Source: an uncultured Sutterella sp. (lineage in GTDB: Bacteria; Pseudomonadota; Gammaproteobacteria; Burkholderiales; Burkholderiaceae_F). From it: DNA of 64,000 bases. The position numbers and the translations under genes are program-made. Shown piece by piece: positions 4,739 to 64,000 of the stretch. Position 1 is the stretch's first letter; every line of letters starts with the position of its first letter. Below the pieces are notes generated by a model. It made no database searches. It had not been told where the DNA came from and was given only the letters and a program-made list of their open reading frames with translations. Where the stretch lies: assembly GCA_944392755.1 (NCBI GenBank), contig CALXXT010000012.1:25264-89263 (forward strand), written 5' to 3'.

Positions 4739-4823
4739 GCGGTCGTGGCGGAACTGGTAGACGCACTACTTTGAGGGGGTAGCGGGGCAACCCGTATGAG
4801 TTCGACTCTCATCGACCGCACCA
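4739..4823 (+). tRNA. tRNA-Leu (anticodon GAG), copy 1
   Basis: The 85-nt class II tRNA has acceptor GCGGTCG pairing with CGACCGC, discriminator A and an encoded CCA. The anticodon loop TTGAGGG carries GAG between CTACT and GGTAG. A variable arm is present, and the T-loop TTCGACT sits between TGAG and CTCA. Confidence 0.95.
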
Positions 4824-4830
4824 CATTTGC

Positions 4831-4908
4831 TGGGGTATCGCCAAGTCCGGTTAAGGCAGCGGATTCTGAATCCGCCATTCGTAGGTTCGAATCCTACTAC
4901 CCCTGCCA
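4831..4908 (+). tRNA. tRNA-Gln (anticodon CTG), copy 1
   Basis: The 78-nt tRNA has anticodon loop TTCTGAA between GCGGA and TCCGC, giving CTG (reads CAG). The T-arm GTAGG-TTCGAAT-CCTAC and the encoded CCA are clear. Acceptor TGGGGTA faces TACCCCT, so position 1-72 is U·U, followed by discriminator G. Confidence 0.94.
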
Positions 4909-4944
4909 AGCGGTTGGTCTTGCAATACAATTTGGAAAGTTTTC

Positions 4945-5029
4945 GCGGTCGTGGCGAAACTGGTAGACGCACTACTTTGAGGGGGTAGCGGGGCAACCCA
5001 TATGAGTTCGACTCTCATCGACCGCACCA
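4945..5029 (+). tRNA. tRNA-Leu (anticodon GAG), copy 2
   Basis: A second 85-nt tRNA-Leu(GAG) differs from copy 1 only at a D-arm base (GGCGAAAC versus GGCGGAAC) and a variable-arm base (CCCATATG versus CCCGTATG). Acceptor, anticodon arm, T-arm and CCA are intact. Confidence 0.95.
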
Positions 5030-5037
5030 CAATTCGC

Positions 5038-5115
5038 TGGGGTATCGCCAAGTCCGGTTAAGGCAGCGGATTCTGAATCCGCCATTCGTAGGTTCGAATC
5101 CTACTACCCCTGCCA
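5038..5115 (+). tRNA. tRNA-Gln (anticodon CTG), copy 2
   Basis: The sequence is identical to the first tRNA-Gln, including the U·U at 1-72 and the encoded CCA. The U-tailed terminator at 5122 follows within 7 bases, so the four tRNAs probably form one transcription unit. Confidence 0.94.
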
Positions 5116-5207: not shown

Positions 5208-6155
5208 TCACTTGAGCGCAGAGGGAAGGATGAGCGACTTCACGTCGACCTTCTTGTCCATCATCCCGTTCTCGACGAGAAACTCCTGATCCTTCGCGAG
5301 ACTCTGGATGTCCGCATCGGTGAGCGTGTCGTAGAAGTTCGACCACGCGTAGAGCTTCTTCGCATCGTCAACGGTTACGCCCTGCTCCTTCGCGCCGATC
5401 TGAAGGGCTTCCTCCTGATGCTCCTGAATCCACTTCAGAGCTGCACGGTTGACTGCGACGACCTTTTCGTAGGCCTCAGGGTAATCAACAGCAAAGGCGC
5501 GGCGGACAGTCATGACGAGATTGGGCTCGACCAGACCCTCGCAGGTCGTGATCGTCTTCGCACCCGCTTCGTTCGCCTTGATGATGAGGTTGGCGGCGAT
5601 GAGAGCTGCATCAACCTTGCCTGCGACGACCGCCGTCATGGCAGCCCCCGGATCCATGTTGATGAATTGAACGTCGTTGATCGTCATGCCTTCCTTCAAA
5701 AGTGCGGCGACGAGGAGCTGATGAAGAACCGTGCCCTTCGGCCCTGCGACCTTCTTGCCTTTGAGATCCTTAACGGCGAAGTTCGTGCCCGGACGACCGA
5801 CCATCGCGAAGATTTCCTTCGGATGCGCAACCCCTGTCGCCACGGCGATGGGATTCCCGGCTCCCGCCGCCATGAGAAGGCTCGCCGTATTCATGACGGC
5901 GGAGAAATCAAGATCGCCCGAAGCCATGGCCTGGCCTTGAAGGGCTCCCGAATTGATGACGCGCCACTCGATCTTGACGCCGTCCTTCTCAAAAGCCTTC
6001 TCAAGCATGCCCCTTTCCTTCATCACAATGTTCTGAAGATTGAAGGGAGCCTTCACGTAGGTGATTGAGATCGACTTCGGCATGTCGGCGGCGAACGCGG
6101 CTGCGCAGGCCGACACGGCGACGGCGGCCATCAGAGTCTTGATGCTGAAATGCAT
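5208..6155 (-). CDS. NitT/TauT-type ABC transporter substrate-binding protein
   Basis: The 315-residue exported protein starts at ATG 6155 with a signal peptide (MHFSIKTLMAAVAVSACAAA, cleavage probably before ADMP). The mature part follows the NMT1/SsuA pattern: SGALQGQAMASGDLDFSAV, then DLKGKKVAGPKGTVLHQLL and AAMTAVVAGKVDAALIAANLI. Such proteins deliver sulfonates, nitrate, taurine, pyrimidine precursors or similar small anions; the ligand cannot be assigned. Its likely partner is the fused permease-ATPase at 8519-10051 on the same strand, but two unrelated genes lie between them. An upstream GGAG supports the start. Longer in-frame starts add no signal-like sequence. Confidence 0.9.
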   Translation of the reverse strand: MHFSIKTLMAAVAVSACAAAFAADMPKSISITYVKAPFNLQNIVMKERGMLEKAFEKDGVKIEWRVINSGALQGQAMASGDLDFSAVMNTASLLMAAGAGNPIAVATGVAHPKEIFAMVGRPGTNFAVKDLKGKKVAGPKGTVLHQLLVAALLKEGMTINDVQFINMDPGAAMTAVVAGKVDAALIAANLIIKANEAGAKTITTCEGLVEPNLVMTVRRAFAVDYPEAYEKVVAVNRAALKWIQEHQEEALQIGAKEQGVTVDDAKKLYAWSNFYDTLTDADIQSLAKDQEFLVENGMMDKKVDVKSLILPSALK

Positions 6156-6573
6156 GTTGGGATGCTCCAAAATTTCCGCCGCGCTCGAAATAGGCGCGGC
6201 ATGCCGCCATTTTAAGTAGGCGGTCTGCCCGAAGACATACGCCAAAAGAAGTGGATCGCCGCCTCTTGCCGAACCTCAGCAGGTCTGCCGGGACTGACGC
6301 AGCTTTCGTCTAAACGCACGTCGATCCGTCGGCCGATGTTCTGGCGCTTGGCGTGAAGATTCAGGCGCAGCGCTGCGCAATTTCCGCTTCGCTCTACACA
6401 TTCCGCCCTCGCGCTTAAGCCGCTCGGCATCATGGCGAGATGAGTCTTCGGCGTTCGGCCGCCGAGCGAGGCCCAGCTAGGGCGGAATCTAATCCGCGCA
6501 TTCGATAAAGACGATGCGCTCTGGCCAGAAAGCGAGACTGCGCACGGCTTACCTCAGAATATGCGCCTCTGCC
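6156..6573. other. Non-coding interval, 418 bases
   Basis: No convincing gene is seen. The right part is downstream of the GIY-YIG gene and the left part is the promoter side of the binding-protein gene. A 73-codon minus-strand frame (6212-6433) lacks recognisable features. No clear intrinsic terminator or consensus promoter was found. Confidence 0.5.
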
Positions 6574-7398
6574 TCAGTTGCGGTTGAGCTCGAGCTCGGT
6601 ATGAAGCGTCCGCTTCCACCAGCCTTCGCGCTCAAGAACGTCGACGTCCGCGGCGTGACTCCCGAGCGTTTCCAGAATGCTGAATTCAAAGTTGGCACGC
6701 CCATATTCTCTGTTCTTGCGCAGGAGCCGCATAAGTTCAACGTTTCCTCCGTGTCCGCCAGTCGCCACGTAGCACTGCCAGCGCTGCCAGATGCCGTCCG
6801 CACCGTAGGCCGAACCCACATACCGCCGCATCGTCTTTGTGTCCGTAATCAAATAGACGCCTTTTTGGCTCGACAAAGGTCCGATCCAGTCCGTACGGCC
6901 GTTTCTGGCGAACGCTTCAAGCTTGCGCAGCGTAACGCCCTGCACCCAAGCAGATCCCGGGAAGGCCTCGCCGCCGTACCGCTCGGGAAGAATCTTCGTG
7001 ACGCGCAGCTCGCCAGCCACCGTCGGATATCTGACACAGTACATTTTCGAAAGGCCGGGGTCGCTCACGACGACGCGGCCGCAGTAGCGCTGCAGTTCCG
7101 GTATGTCTTCACTCCCATAAGCGTCCGATTTCGGCACGCCCGTGTCGGAAACGATTCGCCGCACGCCCGTGAGCAGGTAGTCTCCCGTCGGAAGCTTCAT
7201 GAGGCAGAGCGCCGTCTGACCCACGCGGAAAAAGCCGCGCTCGCCTCTCCAGGCGAGCCAGCGCGTATTGGCGGCATCGGGATCCTCTACGTAGTCGTCG
7301 ATGGGATCCACCTCGCCGTTCCACATGTTGAACTTAGCCTTGACCGTGGCCTCGAGCGGAAGACGGAGAAGATCGTTCAGAAGAATGTCATCCGGCAT
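6574..7398 (-). CDS. GIY-YIG nuclease family protein with N-terminal domain
   Basis: The 274-residue protein has two parts. Residues 1 to about 165 form a domain I do not recognise, with strand-rich segments such as FFRVGQTALCLMKLPTGDYL. Residues 178-274 form a GIY-YIG domain: GVY at 180-182, YVG at 193-195, the helix Arg206 in GIWQRW, GGHGGN, and the metal-binding Glu in LEREGWW (256 or 258). Catalytic residues therefore look intact. ATG 7398 is preceded by AGGAAC and lies inside the 3' end of the upstream gene (11-base overlap), indicating translational coupling. GIY-YIG enzymes cleave DNA in repair, restriction or mobile-element contexts; the substrate here is unknown. Confidence 0.82.
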   Translation of the reverse strand: MPDDILLNDLLRLPLEATVKAKFNMWNGEVDPIDDYVEDPDAANTRWLAWRGERGFFRVGQTALCLMKLPTGDYLLTGVRRIVSDTGVPKSDAYGSEDIPELQRYCGRVVVSDPGLSKMYCVRYPTVAGELRVTKILPERYGGEAFPGSAWVQGVTLRKLEAFARNGRTDWIGPLSSQKGVYLITDTKTMRRYVGSAYGADGIWQRWQCYVATGGHGGNVELMRLLRKNREYGRANFEFSILETLGSHAADVDVLEREGWWKRTLHTELELNRN

Positions 7399-8434
7399 CT
7401 TCAGGTTCCTTTCTCTTTTTTGCGATGGTGATTCTGTCGAGAAATTCAGGCGGATCATCCGGATTGAAGATCCGGCCGACAAGTACGGCCTTCCCCGACA
7501 CTTTGTCGCCGACGTGAAGTTCTTGAAGCCCGCCCTCGACAACTCGGGGATTCACATAGACAACCATCGGAATCCAATCTTCCGAATCATCGGATTCGAG
7601 CTCCGCTTCCGAGAGAGGAATCGTGATTCGCAGCAGCATTTCCCCAAAGCACTCAACCTTTTCAAGGGTTGCGATGGTGCCGATAAACTCGCCGGCAGAA
7701 CTTACGCTCCGGGATTGCGTCCAGTCCGTGAGCAAGCGCCGATCCACGGTTACGAAGAAACCTGCCGGATCGGCATCCGGATGCATCGCCAGAAATTCTG
7801 ACTTCAGCGATTCGTACGTTTCGCCGCTTCTGACTTCGGTAAAGTCCTCAATATCCACCTTTTGAAGGCTGACTGCCGCGGCAACCACTTCCATCATTCC
7901 AGCGGCGGGTAAAGTGCCTGCACGAGCAGTCATGTGACCGACGACATAGGGAAGGAGACACTCGAGCTTGGTTTCCCGAAACGGACTTCGCGGCAAAGGC
8001 GTAAAGCGCATCTCGCCCCAAATCGGCGTGCCCTCTCCGTGAACGCGGCATGCCTCGGCCTGAAACTCCCAAACCACTCCAGGCAGAAATGGAATGCCGC
8101 AGGTCGTGCTCCGAATCAAAGAAGTCCCCGCTTTTCGGAATTTACGGTAAGTCATCCGAACCAGTTGAGCGCAGCTGAAGTCGGAGCCGGTAGCCTTCGC
8201 CGAAACCCGAACGTTGTGGAACCAACCTCCCCAATCTTCCTTCTCGACGGCAAACCCAAAATGCTTCTCCCCCTCGAAGGCGTCATCGAATCCAAGAATC
8301 GCCGAAACCGTGTCGGGAGACGGAATCATGGCGGCATCATCATCAGCAGCAGCCGAATCTTCATCCGCGGCTTCTGCGTCGAACGTTTGAACACGCAGAA
8401 CCGGCATGCCTTCATCATCAACCTCGTGCTTCAT
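7388..8434 (-). CDS. Hypothetical protein coupled to the GIY-YIG gene
   Basis: The 348-residue soluble protein is not recognised. It begins with an acidic Ala/Asp/Glu-rich stretch (residues 12-35) and has several Trp/Gly-rich patches (KEDWGGWFHNVRV, GVVWEFQAEA). It ends with a segment resembling an OB-like barrel (LHVGDKVSGKAVLVGRI). There is no signal peptide or membrane helix. ATG 8434 follows a CAGGAG site. Its stop overlaps the start of the nuclease gene by 11 bases, so the two are expressed together and may act as a pair. The cassette sits between the ATPase/permease and binding protein of an ABC transporter, suggesting insertion. The OB-fold suggestion is inference only. Confidence 0.7.
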   Translation of the reverse strand: MKHEVDDEGMPVLRVQTFDAEAADEDSAAADDDAAMIPSPDTVSAILGFDDAFEGEKHFGFAVEKEDWGGWFHNVRVSAKATGSDFSCAQLVRMTYRKFRKAGTSLIRSTTCGIPFLPGVVWEFQAEACRVHGEGTPIWGEMRFTPLPRSPFRETKLECLLPYVVGHMTARAGTLPAAGMMEVVAAAVSLQKVDIEDFTEVRSGETYESLKSEFLAMHPDADPAGFFVTVDRRLLTDWTQSRSVSSAGEFIGTIATLEKVECFGEMLLRITIPLSEAELESDDSEDWIPMVVYVNPRVVEGGLQELHVGDKVSGKAVLVGRIFNPDDPPEFLDRITIAKKRKEPEDAG

Positions 8435-28926: not shown

Positions 28927-29002
28927 TGGAGCGGGAGACGAGTCTCGAACTCGCGACCTCAACCTTGGCAAGGTTGCGCTCTACCAACTGAGCTACTCCC
29001 GC
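28927..29002 (-). tRNA. tRNA-Gly (anticodon GCC)
   Basis: The 76-nt tRNA on the minus strand has acceptor GCGGGAG pairing with CTCCCGC, anticodon loop with GCC between AACCT and AGGTT, T-loop TTCGAGA and an encoded CCA. It is the last of six minus-strand tRNAs. Confidence 0.96.
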
Positions 29003-29038
29003 ACGCCTCGACGACGCGCGGACTTGAAGAAAAGTCCG

Positions 29039-29114
29039 TGGAGCGGGAGACGAGTCTCGAACTCGCGACCTCAACCTTGGCAAGGTTGCGCTCTACCAAC
29101 TGAGCTACTCCCGC
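29039..29114 (-). tRNA. tRNA-Gly (anticodon GCC)
   Basis: A copy identical in sequence to the neighbouring tRNA-Gly, with encoded CCA. It is the first gene after the strong promoter at 29138-29165. Confidence 0.96.
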
Positions 29115-29137
29115 ATCGCGTGGTGCGAAGAATCCGA

Positions 29138-29165
29138 ATTATACCGAAGCGGCATTGAATGTCAA
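29138..29165 (-). promoter_or_regulatory. Near-consensus sigma-70 promoter for the tRNA-Gly pair
   Basis: Reading the minus strand, TTGACA (29165-29160) and TATAAT (29143-29138) are exact consensus hexamers separated by 16 bases. The -10 hexamer lies 23 bases upstream of the tRNA at 29114. Confidence 0.85.
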
Positions 29166-29188
29166 CCGTCTTCTTTGAAATTCGAGCA

Positions 29189-29277
29189 TGGTCCCGGGAA
29201 CGGGAGTCGAACCCGTACGCCTAAAGATCGGCGGCGGATTTTAAGTCCGCTACGTCTACCAGTTCCGTCATCCCGGG
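29189..29277 (-). tRNA. tRNA-Leu (anticodon TAA)
   Basis: The 89-nt class II tRNA has acceptor CCCGGGA/TCCCGGG, T8, anticodon loop CTTAAAA (TAA) between GCGGA and TCCGC, a long variable arm, T-stem ACGGG/CCCGT, discriminator A and CCA. Position 1 is C rather than the usual G. Confidence 0.94.
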
Positions 29278-29294
29278 ACCGATCCGCATTCGCA

Positions 29295-29324
29295 GAAAAA
29301 AGGGGGAAACCTTCGCTTCCCCCT
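29295..29324 (-). terminator. Intrinsic terminator inside the tRNA array
   Basis: AGGGGGAA/TTCCCCCT (29301-29308 and 29317-29324) with an 8-base loop has an A-run on its left that gives a U-tract on the minus strand. It ends the Gly-Cys-Gly unit, so tRNA-Leu(TAA) needs another promoter or readthrough. Confidence 0.85.
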
Positions 29325-29340
29325 ATTCTCTTTGGAATTC

Positions 29341-29416
29341 TGGAGCGGGAGACGAGTCTCGAACTCGCGACCTCAACCTTGGCAAGGTTGCGCTCTACCA
29401 ACTGAGCTACTCCCGC
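29341..29416 (-). tRNA. tRNA-Gly (anticodon GCC)
   Basis: A third copy with the same 76-nt sequence and encoded CCA, 8 bases after tRNA-Cys in transcription order and followed by the terminator at 29295-29324. Confidence 0.96.
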
Positions 29417-29424
29417 GTTCTCTG

Positions 29425-29498
29425 TGGAGGCGCGAGGCGGAATCGAACCGCCGTAAACGGATTTGCAATCCGGTGCATGGCCACTTTGCTATCGCGCC
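29425..29498 (-). tRNA. tRNA-Cys (anticodon GCA)
   Basis: The 74-nt tRNA has acceptor GGCGCGA/TCGCGCC, anticodon loop with GCA between CGGAT and ATCCG, T-loop TTCGATT, discriminator T and encoded CCA. It lies between two tRNA-Gly genes. Confidence 0.95.
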
Positions 29499-29511
29499 GC
29501 CTTTTCATCAG

Positions 29512-29587
29512 TGGAGCGGGAGACGAGTCTCGAACTCGCGACCTCAACCTTGGCAAGGTTGCGCTCTACCAACTGAGCTACTCCCGC
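29512..29587 (-). tRNA. tRNA-Gly (anticodon GCC)
   Basis: The fourth copy with the same 76-nt sequence and encoded CCA. It is the first gene of the Gly-Cys-Gly unit, just downstream of the promoter at 29601-29628. Confidence 0.96.
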
Positions 29588-58104: not shown

Positions 58105-58473
58105 ATGGCTGACTCCGCTCAACTTCCGCACACGCACGATGCCCGACTTGAAAAGGCGGCAGCCCGTCTTCCCGAAACGAACGACTTCCGAGAAGCGTCC
58201 GACATCTTCAAGCTTTTGGGCGATGCGAGGCGCCTCAAAATCTTCTGGCTTCTCTGCCACGGCGAAGAGTGCGTCATCAACATCGCGGCTCTGATGGGAA
58301 TGTCGAGCCCCTCTGTCGCGCATCACCTGAAGATTCTGAAGATGAGCGGCCTCATCGAAAGCCGCCGCGAGGGGAAAGAGGTCTTCTACCGCGCCGACAT
58401 GACGAAGACGCGCGTGGCGACGCTCCACTCCTTCGTCGAGAAGCTCATGCGGATCTGCTGCCTTCAAAACTGA
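58105..58473 (+). CDS. ArsR/SmtB-family metal-responsive repressor
   Basis: The 122-residue winged-helix protein has the ArsR core: FKLLGDARRLKIFWLLCHGEECVINIAALMGMSSPSVAHHLKILKMSGLIESRREGKEVFYR. A Cys before the recognition region (EECVIN) and a C-terminal CC (RICCLQN) could form a soft-metal site, as in CadC-like members. It is divergent from the HMA and P1B ATPase genes and presumably represses them through the repeated element. The inducing metal (Zn, Cd or Pb) cannot be told. Confidence 0.92.
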   Translation: MADSAQLPHTHDARLEKAAARLPETNDFREASDIFKLLGDARRLKIFWLLCHGEECVINIAALMGMSSPSVAHHLKILKMSGLIESRREGKEVFYRADMTKTRVATLHSFVEKLMRICCLQN

Positions 58474-58488
58474 ACCAATTCCTCTGCA

Positions 58489-58505
58489 CGGCGGCCTTGC
58501 CGCCG
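58489..58505 (+). other. Hairpin after the arsR-type gene
   Basis: A perfect 7-bp stem CGGCGGC/GCCGCCG with loop CTT lies 16 bases after the stop. There is no U-tract, so it is a weak terminator at best. Confidence 0.45.
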
Positions 58506-58645
58506 AGGTGAGCAGCGCGCATTTCCCACCTTTTCGACATCAAATCTTCACAAAGCCATCACGATATTGAAATACGGCGCTCTTAAAGTACCTCTCGGAT
58601 AAACGGCCAGAGTTTCGAGAGAGAGTCCGCAAGTCCTGCATTCAG

Positions 58646-58681
58646 AAGTCGAAAGCTTCCTTTTTTCGACTTTCGTTTTTT
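58646..58681 (+). terminator. Leader terminator upstream of the glpP-ugp operon
   Basis: AAGTCGAAA (58646-58654) pairs perfectly with TTTCGACTT (58664-58672) around a 9-base loop, followed by TCG and T6. An upstream CTCTCG/CGAGAG hairpin (58592-58597 and 58616-58621) precedes it. It lies 48 bases before the GlpP-family start and could be the antitermination site, or simply terminate arsR readthrough. Confidence 0.72.
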
Positions 58682-58728
58682 CGCCCTTCGGCGCCCCGGG
58701 CTTCGAAGGGCAGGCAAGGTCAACGCTC

Positions 58729-59340
58729 ATGCTCTCGAAAACCACACTCTCGGAACTGCTCGCGCGCCCCGTAATCGCCGTCGTCAGGCGCACGGAAGAA
58801 CTCGACGGCGCGCTTCGAAGCCCATCCAACATCATCGAGCTGCGCGCCAGCAGCCTCATGGAGCTCCCCTTCATCGTGCGTCGCTGCCGCGACGCGAAGA
58901 AGGCGCTCTTCCTTTATCCGGAACTCATCGAAGGACTTGGCCACTCGCCCGCCTCGATCGAGTTTCTCGCGCAGTACGCCCGTCCGACCGGCATCGTTTC
59001 CACCAAGAAGCAAATCCTCAACACCGCCGCTTCGCTCGGGCTCCTCACCGTCTTTCAAATCTTCATGATCGACACCCAGGCCTTCGGCACGGGCGTCCGC
59101 AACGCGCAGAAGCTCCGGTGCGACGCAATCGAGGTTATGCCGGGCGCGATCCCCAACATCGTGCGCGAAGTCTGCGCCCTCGTTGATAAACCCGTTCTTT
59201 GCGCCGGACTCGTCAAAACCGCCGAAGAAGTCTCGAAGCTTCTCGAGTCCGGGGCCGCAGGCGTCGCCACCAGCACGAGCACGCTTTGGTTCGATCCGCT
59301 GAACCAAAACCGGCGCACGCTCGGAGGAGAAAACGAATGA
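58729..59340 (+). CDS. GlpP-family glycerol-3-phosphate-responsive antiterminator
   Basis: The 203-residue protein matches the G3P_antiterm family: PVIAVVRRTEEL, then STKKQILNTAASLGLLTVFQIFMIDTQAF, IEVMPGAIPNIV and a C-terminal PVLCAGLVKTAEEVSKLLESGAAGVATSTSTLW. In Bacillus, GlpP binds glycerol 3-phosphate and prevents termination in leaders of glp genes. Here it heads an ugp-like operon (ATGA overlap with the ATPase gene) and has an intrinsic terminator 48 bases upstream, consistent with autogenous antitermination. This is inference. No PTS or glpF/glpK genes are nearby. Confidence 0.88.
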   Translation: MLSKTTLSELLARPVIAVVRRTEELDGALRSPSNIIELRASSLMELPFIVRRCRDAKKALFLYPELIEGLGHSPASIEFLAQYARPTGIVSTKKQILNTAASLGLLTVFQIFMIDTQAFGTGVRNAQKLRCDAIEVMPGAIPNIVREVCALVDKPVLCAGLVKTAEEVSKLLESGAAGVATSTSTLWFDPLNQNRRTLGGENE

Positions 59341-60527
59341 CCGCAGCGCTTCAACTCTTTGGCGTAAGCAAAAGCTACGGAACCACCTCCGTCCTTGAGT
59401 CCCTCGACTTGAACGTCGAGAAGGGAGAATTCATCTGCCTGCTCGGTCCCTCGGGCTGCGGGAAGACGACGCTCCTGCGGATGATCGCAGGGCTTCTTTT
59501 CCCGACGACGGGCGAAATCCGCATCGCCGGGCGCGACGTAACGTCAATGACGCCGTCGGAACGCAACATCGCGATGGTGTTTCAGTCCTACGCGCTCTAC
59601 CCGCACAAGACCGTGTGGGAGAACATCGCCTTTCCGCTTCGCATGCGAGCCCCGTGGACGACGCGCATTCCGATCTTCGGTCGCTTCACCGAAGCGCGCC
59701 GTGCGCTCGAGCGCCGGCTCGGCGACGAAGTGCCCGCAGTCGCCCGCTCGCTCGGTCTCGAGAAGCTTCTTGCACGCAAGCCCTATGAGCTCTCAGGCGG
59801 CCAGAAGCAGCGCGTCGCGCTTGGACGCGCCCTTATCCGCAATCCCGAACTCTTCCTTATGGACGAGCCTCTCTCGAACCTCGATGCGAAGCTTCGGACC
59901 GAGACGCGCCGCGAAATCGTGAATCTGCACGCCCGCACGGGTAAAACCTTCGTCTACGTGACGCACGACCAGGTCGAAGCAATGACGATGGCGCACCGCA
60001 TCGTGCTTCTCTATGCCGGGAAGGTGCAGCAGATCGGCTCGCCCCTCGAACTCTACGACGACCCGGAAAACCTCTTCACCGCTTCCTTCATCGGCACGCC
60101 CACCATCAATCAGCTCGAACTTACGGTTTGCGCGGACATGCTCCCGCTTCTTGAGGACGAACCCTGGAGGGGCCAGAACGCAAAGAAGCTCGCCGCAGTC
60201 CTCCCCGAAGGGAAATACACGATCGGAATCCGACCGGAAGCGCTTCTGCCCTCTACGGCGGGCGAACCGGGCGCCATTTCGGTCGAGGTCGACTACTGCG
60301 AGGAAATGGGCGCGGAAACCATCGTCTGGTGCCGCACCCGGCGCACGAAGAAGACGGCTTGCCTGAGGCTCCCGCGCACATCGCCCTTTGAGGCGAAGGC
60401 GATCTCGGGGGTTGAGCCCGATTGGTCGAAGGTGCTCGTCTTTGATGAATCGGGACGCCGCGTGCGCCTCAACGCCGAAGCGACGGCCGAACGCGTCTTC
60501 AACGTGGAAATGCGGAGCGAAGCATGA
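59337..60527 (+). CDS. ugpC: sn-Glycerol-3-phosphate ABC transporter ATPase (UgpC-like)
   Basis: The 396-residue CUT1-type ATPase has Walker A GPSGCGKTT (37-45), Q-loop VFQSYALYPHKT, LSGGQKQR, Walker B LFLMDEPLSNLDAKLR, the switch THDQ, and a C-terminal regulatory MalK-like domain (from about 245). Its start ATG overlaps the antiterminator stop (ATGA) and its stop overlaps the permease start (ATGA). It would power uptake of glycerol 3-phosphate or glycerophosphodiesters with the two permeases that follow. Substrate assignment rests on the neighbouring GlpP and GpdQ-like genes. Confidence 0.85.
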   Translation: MTAALQLFGVSKSYGTTSVLESLDLNVEKGEFICLLGPSGCGKTTLLRMIAGLLFPTTGEIRIAGRDVTSMTPSERNIAMVFQSYALYPHKTVWENIAFPLRMRAPWTTRIPIFGRFTEARRALERRLGDEVPAVARSLGLEKLLARKPYELSGGQKQRVALGRALIRNPELFLMDEPLSNLDAKLRTETRREIVNLHARTGKTFVYVTHDQVEAMTMAHRIVLLYAGKVQQIGSPLELYDDPENLFTASFIGTPTINQLELTVCADMLPLLEDEPWRGQNAKKLAAVLPEGKYTIGIRPEALLPSTAGEPGAISVEVDYCEEMGAETIVWCRTRRTKKTACLRLPRTSPFEAKAISGVEPDWSKVLVFDESGRRVRLNAEATAERVFNVEMRSEA

Positions 60528-61423
60528 AGCGCTTTTACGAAAGGCAGATTTGGATGGCGAATCCCTTCATGCTTTCTCCCGCTCTGGGATGTCTCCTTCT
60601 CTTCTTCGTCGTTCCGATGATCGCGACGCTTGCCGTGAGCTTCACCGACTGGCAGCTGGGCGGGAAGGGCGACGTTCACTTCATTGGATTGGCGAACTAT
60701 CTGGAACTCTGGCGAAGCCCCGACTTCATGAAGAGCGTGCGGAACACCTTCTTCATGACGGCAATCGTCGTCCCCACTTCCTTCGTTCTCTCGCTCGCGC
60801 TTGCGCTTGCCGTGCGCGCGAGCGGACGGTTTGCCCAACTATGGCAGACGATCTACTTCCTCCCGGTGACGGCTTCGCTCGTCGCCATGGCAGTCGTCTG
60901 GCAGTGGATCCTGCACCCCGAAGTGGGCTTCGTCGCCGTCATCCTCTCGCACTTCGGCGTGACGGAAAACGTCAATCTTTTGAACGATCCCGACTATGTG
61001 CTCTGGACGCTCTCCTTCATCACGGTTTGGCAGATGGCGGGCTACTTCATGGTGCTTTTCCTCACGGGACTCGTCCAGATTCCGACGGAGCTCTACGACG
61101 CCGCGAAGGTCGACGGCGCCCGCAGTCCGGCATCGCTCTTCGCAAACATCACCTGGCCGCTCCTCGGACCGACGTCCTTCTTCATTGTCATCCTCACGAT
61201 CATCAAGACCTTTCAGGTCTTCGACATCGTCAAGGTGCTGACGCGCGGCGGCCCCGAGAGAGCGAGCGAAATTCTCCTCTACACCATGTATCAGGAAGGG
61301 TTCTCCTTCTTCCGCATGGGCACGGCCGCAGCGATCGCCGCGCTCTACCTCGCCGTCATGCTCTTCCTCACGTGGCTGCAGACGCACTTCATCGGCCGGA
61401 GGGTTCACTATGGCTTCCAATAA
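60524..61423 (+). CDS. ugpA: ABC transporter permease (UgpA-like)
   Basis: The 299-residue inner-membrane permease has six hydrophobic segments and the EAA loop TELYDAAKVDGARSPASLFANITWPLLGP of CUT1 sugar and glycerophosphate transporters. It overlaps ugpC by 4 bases and the next gene by 14. With UgpE it forms the channel. Confidence 0.88.
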   Translation: MKRFYERQIWMANPFMLSPALGCLLLFFVVPMIATLAVSFTDWQLGGKGDVHFIGLANYLELWRSPDFMKSVRNTFFMTAIVVPTSFVLSLALALAVRASGRFAQLWQTIYFLPVTASLVAMAVVWQWILHPEVGFVAVILSHFGVTENVNLLNDPDYVLWTLSFITVWQMAGYFMVLFLTGLVQIPTELYDAAKVDGARSPASLFANITWPLLGPTSFFIVILTIIKTFQVFDIVKVLTRGGPERASEILLYTMYQEGFSFFRMGTAAAIAALYLAVMLFLTWLQTHFIGRRVHYGFQ

Positions 61424-62252
61424 GGCGCAGCTGCGCGCGCTCGCGCTTCACGTCGGCGTCAACCTTCTGCTCGCGCTCGGCGCATTCTTGATCCTCCTTC
61501 CGTTCATCTGGATGCTGAGCCTCTCGGTGAAGCCCGAGAACGAGATCTACGAAGCGGCGATCCGTTTCCTTCCCAGCGAATGGGACTTTGAGAACTACGT
61601 CGAAGCGTTCGAATTCGGAGAAGTCGGCACCTTCGTCAAAAACGGCCTCGCCGTCACGCTCACCATTCTCGCCATTCAAATGTTGACGGTGATTCCGGCC
61701 GCATACGTTCTCGCCCGCAAGCATTTCAAGCTTGAGAAGGTCTCCTTCGGGCTCGTTCTCACGGGACTCATCGTGCCGCAGCAGGCGGTGGTGATTCCGC
61801 TCGTGCTTGCGATGGCAAAGCTTGATCTTCTCAACACGTTCCCCGTCCTCGTGATTCCCTTCATGACGAGTGCGCTGGGAATCTTTCTTCTGCGGCAGAA
61901 CTTCAAAGCCGTTCCGCAGGAATTGATCGATGCGGCGCTCGTCGACGGCGCGTCCGAGCGCTACATCCTCTGGTTCATCCTCGTGCCGCTCGTCAAGCCT
62001 GCGCTTGCCGCCTTCGCCGTCTTTTCGATCGTGAGCCATTGGAACGACTTCTTCTGGCCCCTTCTCGTCGTGAACGACCTCTCGCTGGCGACGCCGCCCC
62101 TCGGAATCTCGATTTTTGCCTCCGACGAAGGCGGCAACGACGTGGGGCCGATGATGGCCTCGGCGACGATCATCGTGACGCCGCTCCTCGTCGCCTTCCT
62201 CTGCGCTCGGCGCTGGTTCATTCAGGGCATCACGCTTTCGGGGCTCAAATAG
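61410..62252 (+). CDS. ugpE: ABC transporter permease (UgpE-like)
   Basis: The 280-residue permease has six helices and the EAA loop QELIDAALVDGASERYILWFILVPLVKP. It resembles the second permease of CUT1 systems (MalG/UgpE type). It overlaps the UgpA-like gene by 14 bases and is followed after 2 bases by the phosphodiesterase gene. Confidence 0.88.
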   Translation: MASNKAQLRALALHVGVNLLLALGAFLILLPFIWMLSLSVKPENEIYEAAIRFLPSEWDFENYVEAFEFGEVGTFVKNGLAVTLTILAIQMLTVIPAAYVLARKHFKLEKVSFGLVLTGLIVPQQAVVIPLVLAMAKLDLLNTFPVLVIPFMTSALGIFLLRQNFKAVPQELIDAALVDGASERYILWFILVPLVKPALAAFAVFSIVSHWNDFFWPLLVVNDLSLATPPLGISIFASDEGGNDVGPMMASATIIVTPLLVAFLCARRWFIQGITLSGLK

Positions 62253-62254
62253 TC

Positions 62255-63073
62255 ATGCTGCAGTTCGTCCACATCACCGACCTCCACGCGGACGCTTCGG
62301 GAATGCATTTCGGGATCGACGCCTTTGAGCGGCTTGAGTTGGCGCTCAGCCACGCCGCCGGGCATGCGCCGCATGCAAACTTTGCCGTCCTGACGGGAGA
62401 CGTTGCCGAGCGGGGCGACGAAGCCTCCTACCGAAAGGTGCGCAGGATGCTCGAACGCCTCCCCTATCCCGCCTTTGTCCTCCCGGGGAACCACGATGAT
62501 CCTTCCGTCCTGAGCCGCGTCTTTGAAGAAACGCCCTCAGTAGACCTTGCGAATGCCTCGGGTGCCCGTCGGGTGCGGGAGCTCCGAGCGCCTGAATTCA
62601 ACGCGCTCTTTCTCGATACGCATGCAGGAGGAAAAGGAGAGGGCGCGATGAAGACCGGCGACCTTGATGCCGTTCGAGAGGCGCTCAGGAGCGAAAAGCA
62701 CCTGTTTCTCTTCATGCATCACCCGCCCTTTGCGAGCGGCATCTCCGCGATGGACGCGCTCGGTCTTTCGAACCCGGATGCGCTTCTGCGCATCTTCGAA
62801 GAGGCGCACCGCAAGCCCGCCGCCATCTTCTGCGGCCACCTGCACCGCACGATTGCGGGGGTTTGGGCAGGCGTGCCCGTCTTCGCCCTGCGCTCCGTCG
62901 TGCAGGAGGTCGACCCTTTTTCGCGCGATCCGAATCGCATCGTCTACTGCGCCGAAGCTCCCGAATACGCGCTCGTCGACGCGTCGATCGAAACGGGCGG
63001 GACGCTCACGATCCTTTCGCAGACGATTCGGTTCACCGAATCCGGAACATCGATTTCCGATTTACCCGATTAA
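62255..63073 (+). CDS. Metallophosphoesterase, GpdQ-like glycerophosphodiesterase
   Basis: The 272-residue cytoplasmic calcineurin-like enzyme has all dinuclear metal motifs: HITDLH (D9, H11), TGD (D49), GNHDD (N79, H80), HH (155-156 in FMHHPP) and GHLH (H195, H197). FMHHPP, the following MD, and IFCGHLHR closely resemble GpdQ, a glycerophosphodiesterase of 274 residues. It lies between ugpE and the binding-protein gene, where E. coli has the unrelated UgpQ nearby. It probably releases glycerol 3-phosphate from imported diesters. ATG 62255 gives the conserved start; longer in-frame extension overlaps ugpE. Confidence 0.85.
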   Translation: MLQFVHITDLHADASGMHFGIDAFERLELALSHAAGHAPHANFAVLTGDVAERGDEASYRKVRRMLERLPYPAFVLPGNHDDPSVLSRVFEETPSVDLANASGARRVRELRAPEFNALFLDTHAGGKGEGAMKTGDLDAVREALRSEKHLFLFMHHPPFASGISAMDALGLSNPDALLRIFEEAHRKPAAIFCGHLHRTIAGVWAGVPVFALRSVVQEVDPFSRDPNRIVYCAEAPEYALVDASIETGGTLTILSQTIRFTESGTSISDLPD

Positions 63074-63107
63074 CCCCACCATCTCACCATCAAGCGAGGT
63101 ACTTCAA

Positions 63108-64000
63108 ATGACCGTTCAACTTTCTCGACGTCAGTTCTCCAAGCTTTTCGGCGCACTCGCCCTCGGCGCGGCGCTTCCGACGAAGAGCTTCGCAGCCGAA
63201 GAAGAGATTGAATTCACGATCGCCCACACCTACGGCAAGATCTTCCGCCCGATTCACACGAAGATCATCAAGGAATTCAACAAGATCCACCCGAACATCC
63301 ACATCCGCCTCGAAGCGCCGATGTCCGACTACGAAGAGCTCACGCAGCGCACGCTCTCGGGAATTGCTCAAGGGAATGCGCCCGTACTCTCCTTCCAGGG
63401 CGTCAATCAATTCCGTCAGTACATCGAACTTGGCGCCGCCTACGACATCACGCCCTTCACTCAGGAGGATCCGCGCTGGGGCGCCGACTCCGACTACTAC
63501 CCCGAGATGATGAAGCTCTGCAACTTCGGCGGTAAGCAGTACGGCGTTCCATTCGCGATCTCCACTCCGATCATGTACGCCAACCACACGCTTCTCGCGA
63601 AGGCGGGCGTGGACCTCTCGAAGCCCTTCAACACCTGGTCCGACGTGATTGAGGCCGCGAAGAAGGTTCGCGCCTACGACCCGAAGTGTCAGGGAATCTA
63701 CGTCGACTACCAGGCAACGGGCAACTGGATCTGGCAGGCCTTCCTTTACTCCGAAGGCGGCTCGATGATGGACGAAGCCGAAACGCGCGTCGCCTTTGCC
63801 GACGAACCGGGCATCCGCGCGGCGAAGCTCCTGCGCGAATTCATCGACCTCGGCCTCATGGAGGATTCGACCGCGCTTCAGGGCCAGCAGTCCTTCATTT
63901 CGGGGCGCGCTGGCTTCTACGTCGCTTCGACCTCCTGGCTGAAGGGCGTTCAGGACAAGATCAAGTCCTTCGACGTGCGCACGCACCTCTTCCCGGTCGG
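63108..64000 (+). CDS. ugpB: Glycerol-3-phosphate-type ABC binding protein with Tat signal (3' partial)
   Basis: About 297 residues are visible before the window ends. The start MTVQLSRRQFSKLFGALAL is a twin-arginine signal (Arg7-Arg8, hydrophobic core, cleavage probably after SFA near residue 30). The mature part follows the extracellular solute-binding family 1 pattern: FNKIHPNIHIRLEAPMSDYEELTQRTL, VLSFQGVNQFRQYIELGAAYDI and GVPFAISTPIMYAN, then NTWSDVIEAAKKVRA. It should deliver substrate to the ugpA/E/C transporter. Tat export suggests it folds, perhaps with a ligand or metal, before crossing the membrane. The C-terminus is outside the window. Confidence 0.85.
   Translation, partial: MTVQLSRRQFSKLFGALALGAALPTKSFAAEEEIEFTIAHTYGKIFRPIHTKIIKEFNKIHPNIHIRLEAPMSDYEELTQRTLSGIAQGNAPVLSFQGVNQFRQYIELGAAYDITPFTQEDPRWGADSDYYPEMMKLCNFGGKQYGVPFAISTPIMYANHTLLAKAGVDLSKPFNTWSDVIEAAKKVRAYDPKCQGIYVDYQATGNWIWQAFLYSEGGSMMDEAETRVAFADEPGIRAAKLLREFIDLGLMEDSTALQGQQSFISGRAGFYVASTSWLKGVQDKIKSFDVRTHLFPV

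Follow-up and report, generated by a model that had tools for sequence, protein, structure and literature searches.

In the DNA analysed here, a 64,000-nucleotide stretch of a Sutterella genome which we call the window, a glpP-like gene heads an operon of ugp-like transporter genes. The gene order, PHO-box-like repeats followed at fixed spacing by a -10-like hexamer, and a twin-repeat motif at the 5′ end of the predicted transcript can all be read directly from the locus. We propose, with about even confidence, that this is an autogenous, GlpP-controlled operon behind a PhoB-type promoter, in which GlpP would bind a hairpin at the 5′ end of the leader and permit expression, forming a gate that combines low phosphate with the presence of substrate. 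The preliminary description of the locus, which centred on an intrinsic terminator in the glpP leader, gets the outline right and misplaces the emphasis: what recurs among the leaders is the PHO box together with the twin-repeat motif, rather than that terminator.

The operon includes the following genes:

58729..59340, forward strand: glpP-like gene, PF04309 glycerol-3-phosphate-responsive antiterminator family, 203 aa (profile and structure-relative matches)
59337..60527, forward strand: UgpC-like ABC ATPase, 396 aa (best NCBIfam model UgpC, 376 bits against a cut-off of 432)
60524..61423, forward strand: UgpA-like permease, 299 aa (best model UgpA, 123.8 bits, cut-off 335)
61410..62252, forward strand: UgpE-like permease, 280 aa (best model UgpE, 127.3 bits, cut-off 297)
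62225..63073, forward strand: calcineurin-like metallophosphoesterase, 282 aa (PF00149, E 6.3e-15; best model SpdA, 128 bits, cut-off 400)
63105..64000, forward strand: UgpB-like solute-binding protein, 3′ part missing (SBP_bac_8, 2e-25; UgpB, 35.6 bits, cut-off 411)

The GlpP-like protein matches PF04309 over the full profile (1-173 of 173; residues 15-187) with 163.7 bits (E 3.7e-48), above the curated cut-off of 27, and the closest solved structures, 3kts and 1vkf, are both titled glycerol uptake operon antiterminators. Its gene overlaps that of the UgpC-like protein, as previously described, since the ATG of the latter at 59337 falls inside the end of glpP (59340). Short overlaps also join the subsequent genes (UgpC-, UgpA- and UgpE-like and phosphoesterase), and the solute-binding protein gene is incomplete because the window ends where the contig ends. 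In E. coli, the ugpBAECQ operon encodes a phosphodiesterase and a transporter that takes up glycerol 3-phosphate and the corresponding diesters under phosphate control; it is not known to contain a GlpP. Although a Ugp model is the top NCBIfam match for each of the four transporter subunits of the window, every score falls far below its cut-off and the annotation is therefore limited to "Ugp-like", a best-match label. The metallophosphoesterase is probably a glycerophosphodiesterase, and the substrate transported is probably phosphate-containing lipid fragments.

Proteobacterial GlpPs of this kind are rare. Across the 67 genomes of the window's family (18 genera, with Duodenibacillus placed in the Sutterellaceae as in NCBI), glpP was found in six genomes from three genera (2/12, 3/10 and 1/9 genomes), always as an uninterrupted open frame. 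The order glpP-ugpC-ugpA-ugpE is conserved in all six, which bears out the earlier claim that a GlpP heads a Ugp-like operon in a proteobacterium; the phosphoesterase and binding protein genes come next, their order being swapped in L043. UgpA orthologues of at least 54% identity occur in exactly the same six genomes (next matches at most 39%), and the six GlpPs form a single clade (98/97). In a sample of the order, nine of 399 genomes exceed the PF04309 cut-off, five of them with the whole domain. The remaining four cover profile positions 125-170 only and were set aside as other barrels, as were the weak hits of the 76 genomes, among 85 with a match, that stay under the cut-off. In a class-level sample of 369 genomes, the one from which the window comes was alone in matching at E 1e-12. 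Among plasmid records, 35 carry a relative of GlpP, all at less than 60% identity, and neither of the two neighbourhoods inspected is a ugp operon. In L046, the nearest relative of the window, a gene with weak phage-integrase matches (5822-6844; 20.7 bits, below the Pfam cut-offs) immediately precedes the glpP leader, and together with the patchy distribution among genera this is a hint of operon transfer.

The leaders compared are those of the window, L046, L040, L041, L042 and L043. In the window the leader and start region carry the following features:

58534..58566, forward strand: three PHO-box-like half sites with 11-bp spacing (tcGACATcaaa tcTTCACaaag ccATCACgata), found as aligned repeats in all six glpP leaders
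58584..58589, forward strand: -10-like hexamer TAAAGT, with a predicted transcription start at about 58596 (sequence pattern)
58597..58636, forward strand: putative GlpP-binding hairpin, GGAU-AAA-CGG / loop CCAGAGUUUCGAGAGAGAGU / CCG-CAA-GUCC, with counterparts in all six leaders
58645..58681, forward strand: terminator-like hairpin with a T-rich tail and a perfect 9-bp core, 58646-58654/58664-58672 (repeat search and folding)
58683..58711, forward strand: GC-rich hairpin just 5′ of the ribosome-binding region, arms 58683-58696/58698-58711 (86% complementary)
58732..58740, forward strand: CTCTCGAAA, codons 2-4 of glpP, the perfect complement of TTTCGAGAG in the hairpin loop (58613-58621; repeat search)

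All six leaders show the sequence pattern expected of a Pho-type promoter, with 11-bp repeats correctly spaced from a -10 element. A hexamer of the form TA(A/C/G)A(G/C)T lies exactly 17 nt 3′ of the third PHO-like repeat in every one of them, and the repeats, scored against the E. coli PHO box consensus, exceed shuffled sequence with single-leader p values of 0.001-0.049. In L046 the top-scoring triple sits one repeat further downstream. When the same score was applied over 600 bases upstream of five pstS genes, L123 (p 0.003, a near-perfect match) and L124 (p 0.02) had such repeats, and L126 (p 0.06), L122 (0.72) and L125 (0.95) did not. In the window's own assembly (89.8% complete) no PstS and no clear PhoB orthologue was found, the best PhoB match reaching 184 bits; the other five glpP genomes have a PstS match, under its cut-off, and PhoB matches of 242-270 bits, all below the cut-off of 296. 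The switch suggested in the preliminary description places the promoter ahead of the terminator, and by sequence the predicted promoter does lie upstream of the hairpin in 6/6 leaders. Given the PHO box and -10 at this position, the leader is probably transcribed.

Directly 3′ of the predicted start, each of the six leaders could fold into a hairpin that exposes twin AGAG/GAGAG repeats in its loop. Both strands of the six loci (255,754 nt) together hold 13 matches to AGAG-N3-8-GAGAG, and the six leaders account for six of them, where 0.004 are expected per leader. The stems vary in sequence and still pair (CGGC/GCCG in L046, CGGA/UCCG in L042, GGCU/AGCC in L043). With the loop held open, stem energies compared with shuffled flanks gave p values of 0.012-0.27 for single leaders and 1.3e-4 for the six combined, the combined values being too small because the six leaders are related. 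The choice of loop borders, of twin-repeat patterns and of the start-region test described below was made with the leaders already in view. Free folding of 58602-58645 and 58596-58728 preferred a smaller inner hairpin, with 112 and 26 of 200 shuffles respectively folding as well; since the free leader of the window does not favour the stem as drawn, this stem would need protein.

A covariance model of the six leaders (R2) recovered its six training sites from the 67 family genomes (29.7-51.4 bits) and nothing convincing elsewhere in them, the best other sites scoring 25.6 bits and below. Four such extra sites were considered as GlpP targets and rejected: L147 is within a long open frame, L148 and L149 are among overlapping frames and L150 is in a gap before an open frame, with five neighbouring frames lacking a Pfam match and no glycerol gene recognised. 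An Rfam scan found no family in the leader region of the window, and in the loci of seven relatives the sole match was a C4 antisense RNA in L046, distant from the leader.

The terminator-like site is where the preliminary description had placed it: the inverted repeat 58646-58654/58664-58672 is complementary at 9/9 positions and is followed by TTCGTTTTTT to 58681, which leaves 47 bases before the glpP ATG at 58729. An exact rule (perfect Watson-Crick 9-bp stem, loop of 3-12, at least six T in the next ten bases) identified nine distinct sites, 58646 included, on both strands of the window (128 kb of strand), or about 0.02 expected in the 255-base gap. A looser rule was unremarkable (nine sites against a mean of 7.9 in shuffles, over 7 kb). 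The best d score in the window leader, for a hairpin overlapping this one, is a poor -26.4, a level reached by about 0.13 sites per 140 nt. In a folding test of 58644-58682, 195 of 200 shuffles gave less stable structures than the hairpin itself. The second hairpin described 5′ of the terminator-like site is also present, at 58482-58512; it is GC-rich, with 79% complementary arms and no T-run, and lies right after an ArsR-like gene (58105-58473) that is divergent to a heavy-metal P-type ATPase gene.

Among relatives that keep the operon, the terminator is largely not conserved, an outcome which the preliminary description had itself named as counting against its reading. L046 retains a 9-pair hairpin at the same position with the T-tract missing, and its leader has no other terminator candidate (d -62.3). 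In L040 (-18.3), L041 (-10.9), L042 (-17.1) and L043 (-9.0) the best d scores, all better than that of the window, belong to different hairpins in different places, with 0.04-0.07 such sites expected per 140 nt in each. Some terminator-like site is thus present in five of the six leaders (four of the five relatives). In L043 the 3′ arm of the element, AAGCCCAUC, also serves as 5′ arm for a second hairpin, which is followed by nine U's, and this is the geometry seen in Firmicutes. Among the six leaders a shared arm was seen in L043 only; in the window, for example, the element ends at 58636 and the terminator starts at 58645. Antitermination is accordingly plausible in L043; in the window and in L040-L042 it is possible, and in L046 it is doubtful.

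The leader might instead act at the level of translation, which we regard as an unlikely but serious alternative. The GAGA loop would pair with CUCU around the start and first codons of glpP and shut off translation, GlpP would open this structure, and the hairpins would be spacers. The loop UUUCGAGAG has perfect 9-nt complementarity to glpP codons 2-4, the minimum-energy fold pairs the loop with the start region in 5/5 leaders and partly in L043, and L046 keeps the element while the T-tract is missing. Compared with 131 other ORF starts, the pairing has a combined p of about 6e-4 in a test that is post hoc, but single-leader values are uneven (0.008, 0.235, 0.038, 0.031, 0.168 and 0.092), the comparison with shuffled downstream sequence is not significant (p 0.08 to 0.53 in five leaders) and the likeness of the pairings is partly explained by related coding sequence. 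When the loop was blocked in the fold model, the ribosome-binding region became more open in four of five leaders, although the effect is small (0.05-0.15) and reversed in L040. Antitermination, moreover, is the known action of GlpP.

It is distinctly less probable that GlpP acts on the leader by stabilising the mRNA or by promoting termination, as feedback repression, instead of antitermination. In favour of this reading, the element sits at the 5′ end of the RNA, and the loop sequence UUUCGA of the window can pair with UCGAAA of the 5′ arm of the terminator, in which case the free loop would be the antiterminator. This pairing is of 6 bp only, was noted by eye and concerns one species, and the geometry in Firmicutes and in L043 is that of antitermination. 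According to PMC7430163, GlpP does stabilise glpD mRNA in B. subtilis.

Twin-repeat sites also occur in Firmicutes. The loci compared come from the family to which the Anoxybacillus record L009 belongs, which we treat as Bacillaceae, and from a second Firmicute, G454 (L081-L083). The sites, GUC-AGGAGACAAGGAGA-GAC, GUGA-CGGAGAAACGGAGAC-UCAC or GGGGU-AGAGAUAAGGAGA-ACCCC, precede terminators and are located downstream of glpP in Bacillaceae-type loci or upstream of it in L081 and L082; no twin-repeat site was found upstream of the third glpP of G454 (L083). The second repeat or the 3′ arm sits on the 5′ arm of the terminator, glpD-type leaders included. A scan of 39 loci detected the strict Firmicute form, together with a terminator of this kind, in 26. 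Closing stems are short (combined p 4e-5 over 24 elements) and two elements have no stem at all. In a Peptoclostridium locus from the plasmid records (L139) a twin-repeat site and a terminator lie 3′ of glpP.

Seven of eight second-glpP regions are glpP-ugpC-ugpA-ugpE-binding protein operons, the eighth (L087) having a partial glpP match only, so this type of operon is not unique to Proteobacteria, and the combination of element and terminator in the leader is not peculiar to Gram-negatives. The seven leaders (L084-L086, L088-L091) carry TTAACA-type phosphate-box-like repeats (seen by eye), a twin-repeat site and a terminator before glpP. These operons share with those of the Sutterella family the gene order at the head, the terminator, the autogenous position and a twin-repeat site in a looser form: [AGT]GAG-N4-8-[AGT]GAGA occurs in 7/7 Bacillaceae-type and 6/6 family leaders (0.02-0.03 expected in each), whereas the strict family pattern AGAG-N3-8-GAGAG is found in none of the seven. 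They differ in that element and terminator share an arm and that a GDPD gene lies downstream (3/3 examined), where the family operons have a metallophosphoesterase. Their GlpPs are only 24-29% identical to the family GlpPs and form a separate clade. The Arg of the xQRxF motif is present in 12/12 aligned GlpPs (glpD-type, ugp-type and G454) and replaced by Gln in all six family GlpPs, whose ligand or RNA preference may therefore differ.

The likeness of the twin-repeat sites across phyla is probable from their sequences, and the covariance models support it weakly. On 23 Firmicute loci (168 kb), the top two R2 hits were the GlpP sites of L074 and L052 (E 0.14 and 0.87), and GlpP sites made up three of five hits in all; with filters off, on 14 of these loci, they were three of 25 (ranks 1, 3 and 9). 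A model of 18 Firmicute elements (R1, sequence only) gave no match in the six family loci. A model of four leaders (R3) found no Firmicute GlpP site, and among its 13 hits the left-out L042 and L043 came only third and twelfth, with E values of 3.2 and 7.9. A weight matrix of Firmicute cores was set aside: on the six leaders it gave p values of 0.03-0.16 singly and 0.0015 when combined, but in L042 it scored a site other than the element highest, and for L043 a wrong start had served as anchor.

The poor transfer of the covariance models, the weak and unconserved terminator and the substitution in the xQRxF motif speak for a reading without leader control, the operon being regulated by phosphate only, the twin repeats and hairpin incidental, and GlpP acting elsewhere or a relic. 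We consider this very unlikely. The twin motif occupies the same place in 6/6 leaders, glpP has kept its open frame in all six genomes, and these contain no second good element site, the next best having E values of 0.07 or worse in a search whose filters lose weak matches.

In the GlpP-controlled gate which we favour, phosphate starvation would switch on the PhoB-type promoter predicted at about 58534-58596. With the help of GlpP, itself the product of the first gene of the operon, the leading ~40 nt of the transcript would fold into a hairpin presenting two GAGA-type repeats in its loop as a landing site for this protein. The Ugp-like transporter and the phosphoesterase would import glycerophosphodiesters and release glycerol 3-phosphate, and ligand-bound GlpP on the hairpin would allow transcription (or, failing that, translation) to continue into glpP-ugpCAE and the following genes. 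The barrier in the window would most likely be the hairpin and T-tract at 58645-58681. Expression would then need both low phosphate and substrate inside the cell. We infer GlpP binding, the ligand, the direction of the effect and antitermination as the output; gating by glycerol 3-phosphate is suggested by analogy with the protein family. The autogenous antitermination switch originally suggested is supported by the position of GlpP at the operon head, by a terminator-like site in five of six leaders, and by two features that the preliminary description had not named, the upstream promoter-like PHO box with its -10 and the recurrent twin-GAGA hairpin; it is not supported by conservation of the terminator. 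A glycerol kinase above the NCBIfam cut-off occurs in just one of the six glpP genomes (G061), making control of a glycerol regulon unlikely in the other five. Together with the lack of another convincing element in the six genomes, this agrees with a GlpP that serves no operon but its own.

PMC9604022 and PMC7430163 describe leader terminators as the target of glycerol 3-phosphate-bound GlpP in B. subtilis. The protein of that system (glpD/glpFK/glpT) belongs to the same family and acts on catabolic glp genes, whereas in the window GlpP is encoded at the head of a transporter operon which it probably controls and which has a PHO box upstream. Element and terminator are moreover separate in the window, and five of the six genomes lack a kinase at the above threshold.

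PF04309 proteins also occur, in Proteobacteria too, in clusters with FGGY kinase and/or FAD oxidase genes as neighbours (G196, G220 and Enterococcus gilvus), which we call YgcP-like after E. coli YgcP. The GlpPs of G196 and G220 form a separate and very long branch relative to the six family proteins. In the Enterococcus cluster (L140), the same different hairpin end, GAGTGTGCCTTTTTTT, occurs at 5600-5830 and 7540-7670, before glycerol dehydrogenase and kinase genes, and is perhaps the target of the YgcP-like GlpP subtype.

In the accessible portions of the open-access literature we found no description of a GlpP-headed ugp operon or of GlpP control in Sutterellaceae, nor of the Bacillaceae-type glpP-ugp operons. 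A Paraburkholderia "glpP" grouped with glycerol transporter genes in PMC7186790 is probably a different gene.

A broader reading, which we offer tentatively and hold to be unlikely as a whole, is that Firmicutes and Betaproteobacteria share the twin-GAGA hairpin as a portable RNA for recognition by GlpP. In Sutterellaceae it would have been coupled to a PhoB promoter, its downstream platform shifting from a terminator (L043, window) to start-codon pairing (clearest in L046), within an autogenous gate for phosphate and glycerophosphate. For the question of how a single RNA-binding protein could act both in antitermination and on translation, the variable downstream parts of these leaders form a natural series.

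Elsewhere in the window there are two tRNA arrays, one at 28930-29587 on the reverse strand, with four tRNAs of identical scores, and one at 4739-5112 on the forward strand, in which a two-tRNA unit occurs twice.
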